The position numbers were made by a program, and so were the translations under genes. 45,791 nucleotides of DNA from Gammaproteobacteria bacterium (GTDB lineage: Bacteria > Pseudomonadota > Gammaproteobacteria > SZUA-229), in the NCBI GenBank assembly GCA_029882215.1, contig JAOULC010000023.1:1-45791 (forward strand), in the 5' to 3' direction. This document shows positions 16,623-41,557 of the stretch, piece after piece. Position 1 is the first letter of the stretch. Each line of letters opens with the position of its first letter. The notes beneath the pieces were generated by a model. That model was not told the DNA's origin. It saw only the letters and a program-made list of their open reading frames with translations, and made no database searches.

Positions 16623-16961
16623 TTACAGTGCTTCGTTGCCGGTTTCACCGGTACGAATACGAACTGCTTGTTCAACTGGATAGACGAAAATTTTACCGTC
16701 ACCGATTTTTCCGGTATTTGCACTTTTGCTGATGGCTTCAATCACCTGATCAACCATGCCATCTTCAACCGCTGCTTCCAGTTTTACCTTAGGCAGAAAA
16801 TCTACAACGTATTCTGCTCCACGATACAATTCCGTATGTCCTTTCTGTCTACCGAAGCCTTTAACTTCTGTAACAGTAATCCCTTGTACCCCAATTTCAG
16901 ATAATGCTTCACGAACATCATCTAATTTGAAAGGCTTGATAATTGCTGCAACCAATTTCAT
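16623..16961 (-). CDS. glnK: PII nitrogen signal protein GlnK
   Basis: A 112-residue PII protein that senses 2-oxoglutarate and ATP/ADP and blocks AmtB under nitrogen excess. I chose the ATG at 16961, not the upstream in-frame ATG at 17018, because [20 protein letters not shown] is the standard PII N-terminus and GAGGAGA lies at proper spacing before it; this also gives the canonical length. Tyr51, the uridylylation site, is present in the T-loop ([14 protein letters not shown]). The B-loop ([15 protein letters not shown]) and C-terminal [10 protein letters not shown] are conserved. I call it glnK, not glnB, from its coupling to amtB. A sigma-54 promoter and two NtrC sites lie upstream. Confidence 0.95.
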
Positions 16962-17064
16962 TAGATTTCTCTCCTCATTCCTATCGACTTGCGCCAGTTT
17001 TTTCCAGTTTGTCTTCAATCAATACAATAAAAAATATTGAACATTCCGTAATGCCTAAACTACT

Positions 17065-17080
17065 TGCAGAATCCAGGCCA
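17065..17080 (-). promoter_or_regulatory. Sigma-54 promoter of glnK-amtB
   Basis: Minus-strand TGGCCTGGATTCTGCA fits TGGCAYR-N4-TTGCA with one mismatch in each element and the required GG-N10-GC spacing. The predicted start is near 17054, giving a leader of about 93 bases to the glnK ATG. Confidence 0.8.
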
Positions 17081-17141
17081 AGTTTTTTAATCAATAAAAT
17101 CAATGAGATAGCTATTAGATGACTGAATGGATATATGACAG

Positions 17142-17198
17142 GCATTTTATTGGTGCAAAAAAAACGACTAAATAGCCCGGAAGGCACCAGAACAGTGC
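17142..17198 (-). promoter_or_regulatory. Two NtrC-type sites upstream of glnK
   Basis: GCATTTTATTGGTGC (17142-17156, one mismatch) and GCACCAGAACAGTGC (17184-17198, both half-sites perfect) match GCAC-N7-GTGC. Centres are about 95 and 137 bases upstream of the predicted start, the usual enhancer position for NtrC. Confidence 0.75.
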
Positions 17199-17433
17199 AG
17201 ATGACGTGCATTGCTTTATTGCTTGTCTAATTCGGCTGTTTAACTTTATTAATTTTTCTTTTCTTCAGCGTAAATTAATCCGTTGTATAGCGATTTAAAG
17301 CAAATCTGACATGCTTATTTTTTTCCTCAAGCTAGTATTTTTAAAAGCGCCTAAAACAGATGAAACAGTGATGTGATTTAGTGGAAGCGGTTTTGCAACA
17401 ACCATTTTTAAGTTGTTAATAAAATGAATTGAT

Positions 17434-17464
17434 AAAAAAAGTGGTGTCTGAAACCAGACACCAC
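17434..17464 (-). terminator. Strong intrinsic terminator, minus strand
   Basis: A perfect 10-pair stem GTGGTGTCTG/CAGACACCAC with a 4-base loop, followed on the minus strand by seven T. It is about 230 bases beyond the porin stop codon and beyond a first terminator, so it may end readthrough or an unannotated transcript from 17465-17633. Confidence 0.8.
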
Positions 17465-17633
17465 TAAGACCACAAGGAGTTATCAAAAAAATTTAAAAAA
17501 GTATTCGTATTTACATTTAAAGCGCTCATAAAATGATGAGGCTGGTCGACACAAATAAAAAGTCAGTTAGTCCTGTTCATATCATGAGTTGTCAGAACGT
17601 AAGTGTTAGCACCACGCTCTTTAAATTCTTTAA

Positions 17634-17666
17634 AAAAAGGATGCCTGTCTGGCAGACACCCTTTTT
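17634..17666 (-). terminator. Terminator directly after the porin gene
   Basis: A 14-pair stem (five A-T pairs, then GGGTGTCTG against CAGGCATCC with wobbles) around a 5-base loop, flanked by A and T runs, so it could work on both strands. It starts 26 bases past the porin stop. Its arm sequence resembles the second terminator at 17441. Confidence 0.8.
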
Positions 17667-17691
17667 TATTACTTCATAAGCTTATACAAGC

Positions 17692-39155: not shown

Positions 39156-39205
39156 CGGATTTACTTAATATACACAGAATCAAAGGCTTAGCGGGCATTT
39201 TTACA

Positions 39206-39221
39206 TGGCACGCTTTATGCT
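39206..39221 (+). promoter_or_regulatory. Sigma-54 promoter of glnA
   Basis: TGGCACGCTTTATGCT: a perfect -24 element and a -12 element with one mismatch. The predicted start is near 39232, about 81 bases above the glnA ATG. Confidence 0.88.
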
Positions 39222-39312
39222 CTTTGTTTGTTATACAGAATTACCACTCCAGAGTTCGACAATCGAATTTTGGTAAAACTAACTTTAATACTCTTTTTTG
39301 GAGAACCGCACA

Positions 39313-40722
39313 ATGTCTTTTGCTGACGTTAAAAAAATGGTCGAAGACAACGATGTAAAATTCGTTGATTTCCGTTTCACTGATTCACACGGTAAGGAAC
39401 AGCACGTTTCTGCACCCGTTTCTTGCATCGAAGAATCTTTGTTCGAAGATGGTCGTATGTTTGATGGCTCTTCAATTGAGGGCTGGAAGCACATTAATGA
39501 ATCAGACATGATCATGATGCCTGATGCGTCTACTGCCGTTATGGACCCGTTCTGTGAAGATGCGACAATGAACATTCGTTGCTCAATCATTGAACCGGCT
39601 GATATGCAGGGTTATGCAAAAGATCCACGTTCACTGGGTATGCGCGCTGAAGAATACCTGAAATCTACCGGTATTGCTGACACCGCATTGTTCGGTCCTG
39701 AAAACGAATTCTTCGTCTTTGACAGCGTTACCTGGAAAGACGAAATGGGTGAAAAATCATTCAAGATCAATGCTGAAGAAGCGGCGTGGAGCTCAGGCAT
39801 CCAGTCAGAAGCCGGCAACATGGGCCACCGCCCTGGTGTTAAAGGTGGTTATTTCCCTGTTCCTCCAGTCGACTCTTTACAAGACTTACGTTCTGCGATG
39901 TGCCTTGCTTTAGCAGACATGGGTCAGACTGTTGAAGTACATCACCACGAAGTTGCCACTGCCGGTCAGTGCGAAATCGGTGTAGCGGCTAACACGCTGG
40001 TTAAGAAAGCAGACGAAGTTCAGATTCTGAAGTATGTTGTCCATAACGTTGCACACGCATACGGTAAAACAGCGACTTTCATGCCTAAGCCTATCGTTGG
40101 TGATAACGGTAACGGCATGCATGTAAATATGTCACTGGGTAAAGACGGCAAAAACATCTTTATCGGTGATCAGTACGGTGGTCTTTCTGAAGAAGCTTTA
40201 TTCTTCATCGGCGGTATCATCAAGCACTCACAAGCACTGAACGCTTTTGCTAACTCTTCAACGAACTCGTACAAGCGTCTGGTTCCTGGCTTCGAAGCAC
40301 CTGTTATGCTGGCTTACTCAGCACGTAACCGTTCAGCATCTATCCGTATTCCATATGTGATGAACCCTAAAGGCCGTCGTATCGAAGTTCGTTATGCTGA
40401 CTCAACGGCTAACCCATACCTGTGTTTCTCAGCAATGCTGATGGCAGGTATCGATGGTATCCAGAATAAGATCCACCCTGGCGACCCAATGACTAAAGAT
40501 CTGTACGATCTGCCTCCTGAAGAAGAAGCACTGATTCCACAGGTATGCAGTTCTTTTGATCAGGCTTTAGCCGCACTGTCTGACGACCGTGAGTTCCTCA
40601 AAGCTGGTGGCGTATTCAGTGATGAAATGATTGATTCATTCATCGAACTGAAAATGGAAGAAGTTCAGCGTTTACGCATGACCACTAATCCAGTTGAATT
40701 CGAGATGTACTACAGCGTTTAA
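39313..40722 (+). CDS. glnA: Glutamine synthetase, type I
   Basis: A 469-residue enzyme, the same length as E. coli GlnA, making glutamine from glutamate, ammonia and ATP. I chose the ATG at 39313 ([20 protein letters not shown]), with GGAG nine bases before it, rather than the frame start at 39298. Typical motifs: [50 protein letters not shown] and the adenylylation-site region [10 protein letters not shown] with its Tyr near residue 397. A dodecamer in the cytoplasm. It is preceded by an NtrC/sigma-54 promoter and followed by its own terminator. Confidence 0.97.
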
Positions 40723-40746
40723 TCGCTATATTACAAATTGATTCAG

Positions 40747-40773
40747 AAAAGCCCCGCATTGCGGGGCTTTTTT
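40747..40773 (+). terminator. Intrinsic terminator after glnA
   Basis: GCCCCGC-ATT-GCGGGGC with flanking A/T pairs and a run of T, starting about 25 bases past the glnA stop. Confidence 0.95.
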
Positions 40774-40950
40774 ATGCCAGAAGAAAATGGCTAGTTTTTC
40801 GTTCGTAAACAACCTTTTCTAACAGCGTTCTCTCAGGACTTCTACACTTTGCCTTTACTAGCGACTGCAAACTATTAACCATTATTTCAAGCTTTCTTTT
40901 GTTTATGATTATCGCTATGCTAATGCCAATGTAACTGATGAAATACTCCT

Positions 40951-41508
40951 ATGCGCCTTTTCACTATTTTTTTACTGCTATTAACATTCAATGTTCAGGC
41001 TGAGTTTTATAAAAAGATAAACCCTGATGGCAGTGTCAGTTACAGTGATACCGAAACGCCAGGCAGCGAAGCCATTACGCCGCCTCAAATCACGCCATCT
41101 CCTGCGATTAAATACAATAAAAAAATCCCTGATGATACCTCCTCTGTGGATGGCAAAGCACTGCCTTATCAGTCAATCTCTATTACCTCACCGGAAGATC
41201 AGGCCGTTATTCGTGGCAACAATGGCAATGTCACTGTCTCGCTCAGCATCCAGCCCGCATTACAAACTGCCTTTAGCCATAGCATCAATATTTTCGTCGA
41301 TGGTAAAGTCATTAAAACGGGTATTACTACGTCCTCGATACTGCTGAATGATCTTGATCGAGGCGGCCATACGATTACTGCTCAGATTGTTGATCTGAAG
41401 AAAAAGCTACTTAAGTCCAGCCAAAGCATCACCGTCCACATCAAACGTCATTCAATTCTGCAGATAAAACCAACTGACCCGTACAAACTCACAAACCTGA
41501 GCGAGTAA
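40951..41508 (+). CDS. DUF4124 domain protein between glnA and ntrB
   Basis: A 185-residue secreted protein. The signal peptide is residues 1-17 (cleavage VQA-EF). The mature N-terminus EFYKKINPDGSVSYSDTETPGS is the DUF4124 pattern. The C-terminal half (ISITSPEDQAVIRGNNGNVTVSLSIQPAL) looks like an immunoglobulin-like beta-sandwich. Proteins of this kind are often found between glnA and ntrBC in gammaproteobacteria, but their role is unknown. Confidence 0.85.
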   Translation: MRLFTIFLLLLTFNVQAEFYKKINPDGSVSYSDTETPGSEAITPPQITPSPAIKYNKKIPDDTSSVDGKALPYQSISITSPEDQAVIRGNNGNVTVSLSIQPALQTAFSHSINIFVDGKVIKTGITTSSILLNDLDRGGHTITAQIVDLKKKLLKSSQSITVHIKRHSILQIKPTDPYKLTNLSE

Positions 41509-41540
41509 TTTTAGCCAGATTTCGCACTTTGTTAGCAGCA

Positions 41541-41557
41541 TGCACTATAATAGTGCA
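41541..41557 (+). promoter_or_regulatory. NtrC site overlapping a -10 box upstream of ntrB
   Basis: TGCACTATAATAGTGCA is a perfect palindromic NtrC site, and its centre holds TATAAT (41546-41551). Binding there would block sigma-70 polymerase. No clear -35 box was seen. It lies about 140 bases above the ntrB ATG. Confidence 0.75.

Follow-up and report, generated by a model that had tools for sequence, protein, structure and literature searches.

Seven predicted NtrC-activated sigma-54 promoters clustered with ntrBC in a Gammaproteobacteria bacterium

Introduction

In the glnALG operon of Escherichia coli, ntrB is fed by read-through and by an NtrC-repressed sigma-70 promoter. In Pseudomonas fluorescens, according to the accessible text of three papers, the ntrBC promoter contains a site from which NtrC switches on its own operon (PMC12977541, PMC8871633, PMC10621929), and the accessible part of PMC12316311 predicts sigma-54 promoters for ntrB/ntrC. 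Comparative reconstructions, as far as the accessible part of PMC5343134 sets them out, assign glnA, amtB, glnBK, ntrB, and ntrC to the core of the NtrC regulon and count ure and urt among its taxon-specific members, for example in Alteromonadales and Oceanospirillales.

We analyzed a stretch of 45,791 nucleotides (contig JAOULC010000023.1, lineage SZUA-229), the whole of which is called the window. Like the proteobacterial NtrC regulon, the window carries GCAC-N7-GTGC palindromes upstream of -24/-12 elements; unlike that regulon, it has seven predicted promoters packed within 24 kb, and predicted NtrC control extends to fmdA, amiE, and a porin gene, which the accessible part of PMC5343134 does not name. 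As in the accessible descriptions of the autoactivated ntrBC operon of P. fluorescens, the ntrBC promoter region contains an NtrC site (41542-41556), a likeness of description rather than of promoter sequence. Judged by the element alone, the locus departs from the E. coli-type glnALG arrangement, since a conserved sigma-54 element stands before ntrB at 41639-41654.

Results

Sigma-54 elements and NtrC palindromes in the window

The genes, sites, pairing, conservation, and block patchiness reported here were read from the sequence. The features are listed below; palindromes have no strand, and the element scores come from a sigma-54 matrix built from a consensus sequence.

15339..16604, minus: amtB, ammonium transporter, marine subtype (NCBIfam TIGR03644, 684 bits)
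16623..16961, minus: glnK, P-II signal protein (NF007946, just at cut-off, 181.3 vs 181)
17065..17080, minus: glnK-amtB sigma-54 element, TGGCCTGGATTCTGCA, score 12.7, distance to the glnK start 103 bp
17142..17156: second NtrC-like site for glnK with a single mismatch, centred 69 bp from the sigma-54 element
17184..17198: glnK NtrC palindrome, exact
17692..18330, minus: TorF-type outer-membrane porin (TIGR02001, PF09694)
18450..18465, minus: porin-gene sigma-54 element, TGGCACGAGCCGTGCA, score 16.6
18540..18554: porin-gene NtrC palindrome, exact
18632..20509, minus: VWA-domain protein, 625 aa, overlapping the amiE end (PF00092)
20448..21491, minus: amiE, aliphatic amidase (NF009802, 729 bits)
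21511..26435, minus: urtE, urtD, urtC, urtB, urtA, urea ABC transporter (TIGR03410, 03411, 03408, 03409, 03407, each above cut-off)
26538..26553, minus: urtA sigma-54 element, TGGCATACAGGTTGCA, score 15.9
26711..26725: urtA NtrC palindrome, exact, centre 165 bp from the element
26811-27125, minus: FmdB-type zinc-ribbon gene (TIGR02605)
27200-28426, minus: fmdA, formamidase (NF045496, 763 bits)
28587..28602, minus: fmdA sigma-54 element, TGGCACGTCCGTTGCA, full consensus, score 18.8
28655..28669: fmdA NtrC palindrome, exact
28844..34484, minus: urease operon, in transcription order permease 'ureH', ureD, ureA, ureB, ureC, ureE, ureF, ureG
33807-34484, minus: permease 'ureH', NicO/DsbD_2 family, first gene of the urease operon
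34524..34539, minus: ure-operon (ureH) sigma-54 element, TGGTGCGATATTTGCG, score 12.2, weakest of the seven
34615..34629: ure-operon NtrC palindrome, exact, 45 bp past the EAL gene stop
39109..39123: glnA NtrC palindrome 1, exact
39140..39154: glnA NtrC palindrome 2, exact
39206..39221, plus: glnA sigma-54 element, TGGCACGCTTTATGCT, score 16.3
39313..40722, plus: glnA, glutamine synthetase type I (TIGR00653, 645 bits)
40951..41508, plus: 185-aa gene between glnA and ntrB, which we take to be DUF4124-like (sub-cut-off Big_7 PF17957, 21.3 bits vs 24.1)
41542..41556: ntrB NtrC palindrome, GCACTATAATAGTGC, exact, contains TATAAT, centre 90 bp from the element
41639..41654, plus: ntrB sigma-54 element (seventh), TGGTTCATTTATTGCA, score 13.5, 43 bp from the ntrB start
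41698..42798, plus: ntrB (NF008293, 353 bits)
42795..44204, plus: ntrC (TIGR01818, 741 bits)

A longer TTG open reading frame from 17018 covers glnK, and the P-II family begins at its residue 20.

The original prediction placed GG-N10-GC elements before glnK, the porin gene, urtA, fmdA, ureH, and glnA, each with GCAC-N7-GTGC sites upstream. All six elements were found at exactly those coordinates, with an exact palindrome 59-165 bp upstream in every case, a range that holds across the promoters. The count of six promoters was one too low: the palindrome noted before ntrB is real, but it is not a lone NtrC site, because a seventh sigma-54 element accompanies it. Of the two elements described as full consensus matches, that of fmdA has 0 mismatches to TGGCACG-N4-TTGCW, whereas that of urtA has 2. 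The presence of ntrBC in the same window was borne out by the profile matches. All seven elements lie on the strand of their gene, 39-160 bp before the start codons.

Clustering against background

Exact palindromes occur at 17184, 18540, 26711, 28655, 34615, 39109, 39140, and 41542, that is, eight in the window against 0.68 +/- 0.94 expected from dinucleotide shuffles (largest value 3 in 100 shuffles). All eight are intergenic, and DNA outside the listed genes makes up 15% of the window. The genome of 3.43 Mb holds 44 exact palindromes (18 for the reversed control pattern); the window is 1.3% of the genome yet contains 8 of the 44 (Poisson p about 2e-7), as the expectation of dense clustering against the genomic background required. 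Composites scoring at least 12 comprised 7 promoters from the eight palindromes of the window, compared with 3 from the 36 elsewhere.

In contrast to the palindromes, sigma-54 elements were not enriched in the window, whether counted as GG-N10-GC alone (299 vs 276 expected, reached by 15 of 100 shuffles) or as near-consensus elements (84 vs 78 expected); a sigma-54 scan alone therefore cannot carry the regulon claim. Sigma-70 promoters likewise showed no excess (44 vs 67 expected; 36 vs 34 in 26400-42000). The evidence for the promoters is the pairing of sigma-54 elements with palindromes. Among the nine intergenic elements of the window scoring at least 12, seven were linked to an exact palindrome, and the other two, scoring 14.8, had none.

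The seven composites scored 12.2-18.8, above the 95% level of random one-sided 210-bp windows (95% below 11.25 and 99% below 14.33, about 4000 windows). Scores as high as those of the glnK, ureH, and ntrB elements were reached in 1.6%, 1.75%, and 1.4% of such windows, respectively; taken singly, these three elements are modest, and the case for them depends on conservation.

Candidate regulon members outside the window

The genome has one rpoN match, and ntrB and ntrC are also present. The cluster had been described as the whole NtrC scavenging circuit, which is too broad: nirB on contig C36 and, on C142, two divergent promoters next to an ABC/UAAP1 operon have an NtrC/sigma-54 architecture as good as that in the window. 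The genome-wide search used exact-palindrome and pattern searches, by which mismatched sites outside the window are under-counted. A sigma-54-first census gave 86 distinct matches, with two more, on C142, outside the scanned stretches; nine of the 86 had an upstream NtrC-like site with at most one mismatch (five in the window, nirB, and three weak). The three weak candidates sit on C22, C59, and C140.

Conservation and distribution of the urea/amide block

Composites before glnA, ntrB, the porin gene, glnK, ureH, and fmdA recur in congeners. The glnK counterpart, TGGCCTGNTTTCTGCA, with palindromes, and the porin-gene composite are kept in G001, G002, and G003, and amtB adjoins glnK and the porin gene in congeners. 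Of 29 glnA loci, 26 carry a composite (a 30th locus, truncated at a contig end, was excluded), and glnA palindrome 2 matches a site before E. coli glnA letter for letter. In G003, the ureH element TGGTCTGATATTTGCT lies 81 bp from its palindrome, and urtA lacks an exact palindrome; the fmdA composite is present in G003 and L094, and the urtA composite in L094. Exact palindromes in relatives numbered 44 in G003, at least 35 in G001, at least 26 in G007, and 20 in G005.

Two of 25 family genomes were found to carry the ure-fmd-urt-amiE block; in the present genome it separates the EAL gene from porin-glnK-amtB, and in G003 it sits elsewhere. The order ureDABCEFG-fmdAB-urtABCDE also occurs in loci L101, L112, and L130, with amiE next in the first two. 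An NtrC-linked element precedes fmdA in only 4 of 80 FmdA loci from named records (exact palindrome in 2 of the 4), and NtrC control of fmdA is thus not general. The number of strong palindrome-linked sigma-54 promoters at these 80 loci, 31 of which were represented by stretches under 20 kb, was none in 72, one in four, and two in four; under the same rule, the 21-kb stretch round fmdA in the window had three. The claim that the cluster is unusual accordingly stands for this gene assembly and fails for the contents of the regulon: this type of control is well known, and published NtrC regulons already include most of the genes (PMC5343134, accessible part).

An integrative mobile island was considered for the block and rejected: the junction regions contained no repeats, and the longest exact stretch common to both junctions was 9 bases, inverted. 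The sole tRNA found in the window, at 4822-4898, is not beside the junctions, and no integrase was detected among the genes scanned by profile search. The GC content of the block (41-49%) and its neighbours (42-47%) does not decide whether its composition is foreign. In G003, a Mutator-type transposase was located some 3.9 kb outside the block.

The cluster is not common to relatives. In three congeners, MFS-EAL-porin-glnK-amtB and ntrBC-glnA are on different contigs (of drafts, which leave the distance unfixed), and two of the three lack the block. The clustering might itself have been selected, with pathway genes near their regulator being induced faster or moving as one unit. In both genomes that have it, the block does lie no more than about 10 kb from an NtrC core locus, and in Thioalkalivibrio ALE31 (L120) and Thiomicrorhabdus (L169), amide/urea genes are near a porin-like gene, in L120 near glnK-amtB too. 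Against this explanation stand the separate contigs of the core gene runs, the two congeners without the block, and the absence of any mobile-unit sign at its junctions, and we regard it as unlikely. The tight cluster is probably in part a local accident of where the urea/amide block landed.

Predicted promoter of ntrB

The seventh element predicts self-activation of NtrC at ntrB. In the class, 58 ntrB loci had an exact palindrome, and a sigma-54 element was present in the sense orientation at 51 and antisense at 6. The composite was found at 14 of the 15 family loci that hold ntrB; by matrix scan, 19 of 70 ntrB loci lacked it. Spacings at 14 of the 56 ntrB composites grouped around 165-171 bp. 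These results suggest that NtrC commonly activates itself from a sigma-54 promoter in this class, in contrast to E. coli.

A repression-only role would have the ntrB palindrome silence a sigma-70 promoter as in E. coli glnL, the GG-N10-GC being a chance match and ntrBC being expressed by read-through and from the repressed promoter. At glnL, TATAAT closely precedes the palindrome and no sigma-54 element reaches a score of 10, whereas ntrB of the window has its own element. TATAAT does lie inside the palindrome here and at 6 of 56 ntrB composites, but neither of two sigma-70 scans listed a promoter at that TATAAT, and the sense bias, the family-wide composite, and the recurrent spacing run counter to repression alone, which appears quite improbable.

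The -24 box of ntrB elements is mostly TGGTT/TGGTC, and that of glnA elements is TGGCA, a difference that might delay self-activation. Neither this difference nor the present cluster was found described in the accessible literature on ntrBC autoregulation, ntrB promoters, and urt/ure/amidase genes under NtrC, where subscription journals were thinly covered, so this absence is unproven.

Discussion

The window very probably holds seven NtrC-activated sigma-54 promoters clustered with the genes of the regulator itself. It is highly unlikely that the weaker glnK and ureH elements (12.7 and 12.2) are nonfunctional and that their operons use sigma-70, with NtrC playing another part or none; random sequence does reach such scores at the rates given, but the glnK element, together with palindromes, is found again in three congeners and the ureH element in the sole congener having the block.

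From these sites we infer binding, transcription, and effectors as follows. Under nitrogen limitation, NtrB would phosphorylate NtrC, and NtrC-P on the palindromes would loop onto sigma-54 polymerase 59-165 bp away. The genes induced would be glnK-amtB (ammonium uptake and P-II), the porin gene, urtABCDE-amiE-vwa (urea import and aliphatic amidase), fmdAB (formamidase), urease with its putative nickel permease, glnA (glutamine synthetase), and ntrBC, whose promoter would make the circuit self-amplifying. With TATAAT inside the ntrB palindrome, NtrC bound there could silence a basal sigma-70 promoter and, by the same event, open the sigma-54 one. The cluster consists of genus-wide gene runs (ntrBC-glnA-CDF and MFS-EAL-porin-glnK-amtB) and a ready-wired urea/amide block set between the EAL and porin genes; the direction in which the block moved is our inference.

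A wider reading is tentative and rather doubtful. Gammaproteobacteria as a class may have an NtrC-activated sigma-54 promoter dedicated to ntrBC, in which the -24 box departs from the consensus and the -12 box is strictly TTGC. Such inherent weakness would place self-amplification later than glnA and glnK, giving a two-tier nitrogen response; E. coli glnALG, the source of the textbook view, would have lost this promoter, and in the present genome a urea/amide block already wired for the same regulator would have been plugged in beside it.

The locus offers a concise, well-supported picture of how nitrogen scavenging is controlled in a little-known lineage. The differing -24 boxes of the glnA and ntrB promoters provide a simple testable idea on the staging of the nitrogen response, and the block shows that substrate genes can enter a regulon when they bring their own regulator sites.

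Gene order and predicted NtrC-linked promoters

The cluster is contained in contig C63 of a 3.43-Mb draft genome (144 contigs, 98% complete). From high to low coordinates, its genes are arranged as follows.

Plus strand: ntrC, ntrB, a 185-aa gene, glnA and a CDF transporter gene
Minus strand, first genes: an unassigned 149-aa gene, an MFS gene and an EAL-response-regulator gene
Minus strand, next: the urease operon (a NicO/DsbD_2-type permease gene, ureD, A, B, C, E, F and G)
Minus strand, after the urease operon: fmdA-fmdB, urtABCDE-amiE-vwa, a TorF-type porin gene and glnK-amtB

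The last gene of the urt-amiE run, vwa (18632-20509), encodes a 625-aa VWA-domain protein and exhibited a partial match in the congener G003 (58% over 154 aa), and vwa-like matches near amiE were also identified in loci L095, L111, L121, L124 and L169. FmdA had a 95% match in L094, a record titled Gammaproteobacteria bacterium; together with E. coli-type protein family matches, this suggests Gammaproteobacteria as the class.

The window held eight exact NtrC palindromes (GCAC-N7-GTGC), whereas shuffled sequences gave an expectation of 0.68 and never more than 3; all eight were located outside the listed genes, that is, within 15% of the window. Genome-wide, 44 exact palindromes were found versus 18 matches to the reversed pattern. 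The six sigma-54 elements (GG-N10-GC) of the original prediction were all present where it had placed them:

17065-17080, before glnK
18450-18465, before the porin gene
26538-26553, before urtA
28587-28602, before fmdA
34524-34539, before ureH
39206-39221, before glnA

Elements were scored with a rough sigma-54 matrix built on a consensus sequence, by which those downstream of the window palindromes scored 12.2-18.8; among approximately 4000 random one-sided 210-bp windows, 95% scored below 11.25 and 99% below 14.33. A score of 12 or more was reached by 23 elements in the window; nine of them were intergenic, and seven of these nine were the palindrome-linked ones. Pattern counts revealed no enrichment of sigma-54-like matches alone in the window.

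Another element, TGGCCTGTTATTTGCT (4450-4465, minus strand, score 14.8), precedes a fatty-acid desaturase/lactonase-like MBL/EamA transporter run (1618-4359) and has an NtrC-like site with one mismatch (4576-4590) 125 bp upstream; it is possibly an eighth regulon member, or a chance match. A sigma-54-like element at 279-294 (plus strand, score 14.8) lies outside the listed genes, with no exact palindrome nearby.

A predicted ntrB promoter

In the original prediction, the palindrome before ntrB (41542-41556) was listed with no sigma-54 element named for it. That element had been missed: TGGTTCATTTATTGCA (41639-41654) lies 90 bp downstream of the palindrome centre and 43 bp from the ntrB start. 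Such a composite of palindrome and downstream element preceded ntrB in 14 of the 15 family glnA loci also holding ntrB, 13 with an exact palindrome.

For the class, 184 genomes were drawn, 137 had ntrB, and 70 ntrB loci were examined, comprising the 30 best matches (the window's own included) and 40 chosen by hand from further down the ranking, with matches already included and the most distant ones excluded. The matrix scan identified the composite (palindrome with at most one mismatch) in 51 of 70 loci; random positions drawn from these loci gave 77 of 1400, and these controls themselves include real sites. In the 58 loci with an exact palindrome, GG-N10-GC with at least three of four side bases occurred on the ntrB side in 51 and antisense in 6; for the strict form (T, GG, TTGC), the counts were 46 and 5. 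Palindrome-to-element spacing was 165-171 bp in 14 of 56 cases (L285-L354) and approximately 90 bp in the window's genus. In E. coli K-12, by contrast, a palindrome lies 37 bp before glnL, directly after TATAAT, without any sigma-54 element that reaches a score of 10.

We compared the ntrB and glnA elements by a single selection rule blind to the bases after GG, using 29 glnA loci after exclusion of a 30th that was truncated at a contig end. Elements were present in 26 of the 29 glnA loci, 24 of them with TGGCA, versus 56 of the 70 ntrB loci, with TGGTT in 27 and TGGTC in 6. All 56 ntrB elements carried TTGC at -12; the rule favours T before TGC, yet only 3 of the 26 glnA elements have that T. 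Because related sequences are not independent, the Fisher values obtained are only descriptive. The literature searched on ntrBC autoregulation and ntrB promoters yielded no description of this -24 difference.

Predicted regulon members outside the window

Two of the genome's 36 other exact palindromes adjoin elements scoring at least 12, giving three promoters. One precedes nirB (nitrite reductase large subunit, contig C36; score 18.8), and the others form a divergent pair on contig C142 (15.9 and 15.5), of which one side leads into a substrate-binding/permease/ATPase run that includes a UAAP1 gene and the other to genes of the TIM-barrel and KefC-like types. The single palindrome between this pair (position ~3076 of L034) is a candidate bidirectional NtrC enhancer. 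Since these promoters lie elsewhere, the window does not contain the whole NtrC circuit, as had been claimed, but seven of ten such promoters.

Distribution of the ure-fmd-urt-amiE block

Among 25 family genomes, UreC was detected in two, the window genome and G003. Full-length FmdA and UrtA were found in the same two, with short weak FmdA matches in G016 and weak distant UrtA matches in G002 and G021. The congeners G001 and G002 therefore lack the block, as far as their drafts (94% and 68% complete) tell. G013, of another genus and without UreC or FmdA matches, carries a 144-residue UrtA fragment, 93% identical (C227, 3382-3813), which may represent transfer, contamination or an assembly gap.

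MFS-EAL-porin-glnK-amtB forms one run in G001, G002 and G003 (amtB is cut by the contig end in G001), and their EAL-porin gap holds a palindrome and an element. In the window, the block occupies this gap, with the ure palindrome 45 bp past the EAL stop and the porin palindrome just beyond vwa. In G003, the block (vwa only in part) and porin-glnK-amtB are on different contigs, the block lying past a sulfate permease gene, approximately 8 kb from glnA-ntrBC. In genus g5 (G007 and G018), porin-glnK-amtB and ntrBC-glnA share one contig, amtB and glnA being 26-29 kb apart, without the block. Given these arrangements, the window genome was the only one in which the complete cluster was observed.

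Beyond the G003 block (L091), an open frame resembles a portion of the C-terminal domain of a Tc-toxin A subunit (7384-8316), and a Mutator-type transposase follows (10858-12030). Thioalkalivibrio ALE31 (L120) and Thiomicrorhabdus ZW0627 (L169) carry fmdA, urt, amiE and ure near a TorF-like porin gene, and L120 also has glnK-amtB there. In L120, L124, L145, L146, L148, L157 and L166, fmdA has a good sigma-54 element without an exact palindrome, and an NtrC-like activator gene (38-52% identity) is nearby; fmdA there perhaps has a dedicated activator.

Relation to known regulons and proposed mechanism

In published reconstructions, the NtrC core comprises glnA, amtB, glnBK, ntrB and ntrC, and the regulon gains ure and urt in taxa such as Alteromonadales and Oceanospirillales (PMC5343134). 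For P. fluorescens, NtrC is reported to activate itself (PMC8871633, PMC10621929, PMC12977541), sigma-54 promoters are predicted for ntrB/ntrC (PMC12316311), and putative NtrC sites are listed at glnK, glnA and ureE in P. stutzeri (PMC8443478). The cluster thus belongs to an already known kind; its particular gene assembly was not found described in the literature searched on urt, ure and amidase genes under NtrC.

The genes, sites, palindrome-element pairing and conservation were observed here; the steps that follow are inferred from established NtrC/sigma-54 biology. NtrC-P would bind the palindromes, and DNA looping would precede ATP-driven open complex formation; the promoters would be induced under nitrogen limitation. 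ntrBC would be under positive feedback, and at ntrB a TATAAT-type basal promoter may give way to the sigma-54 promoter.
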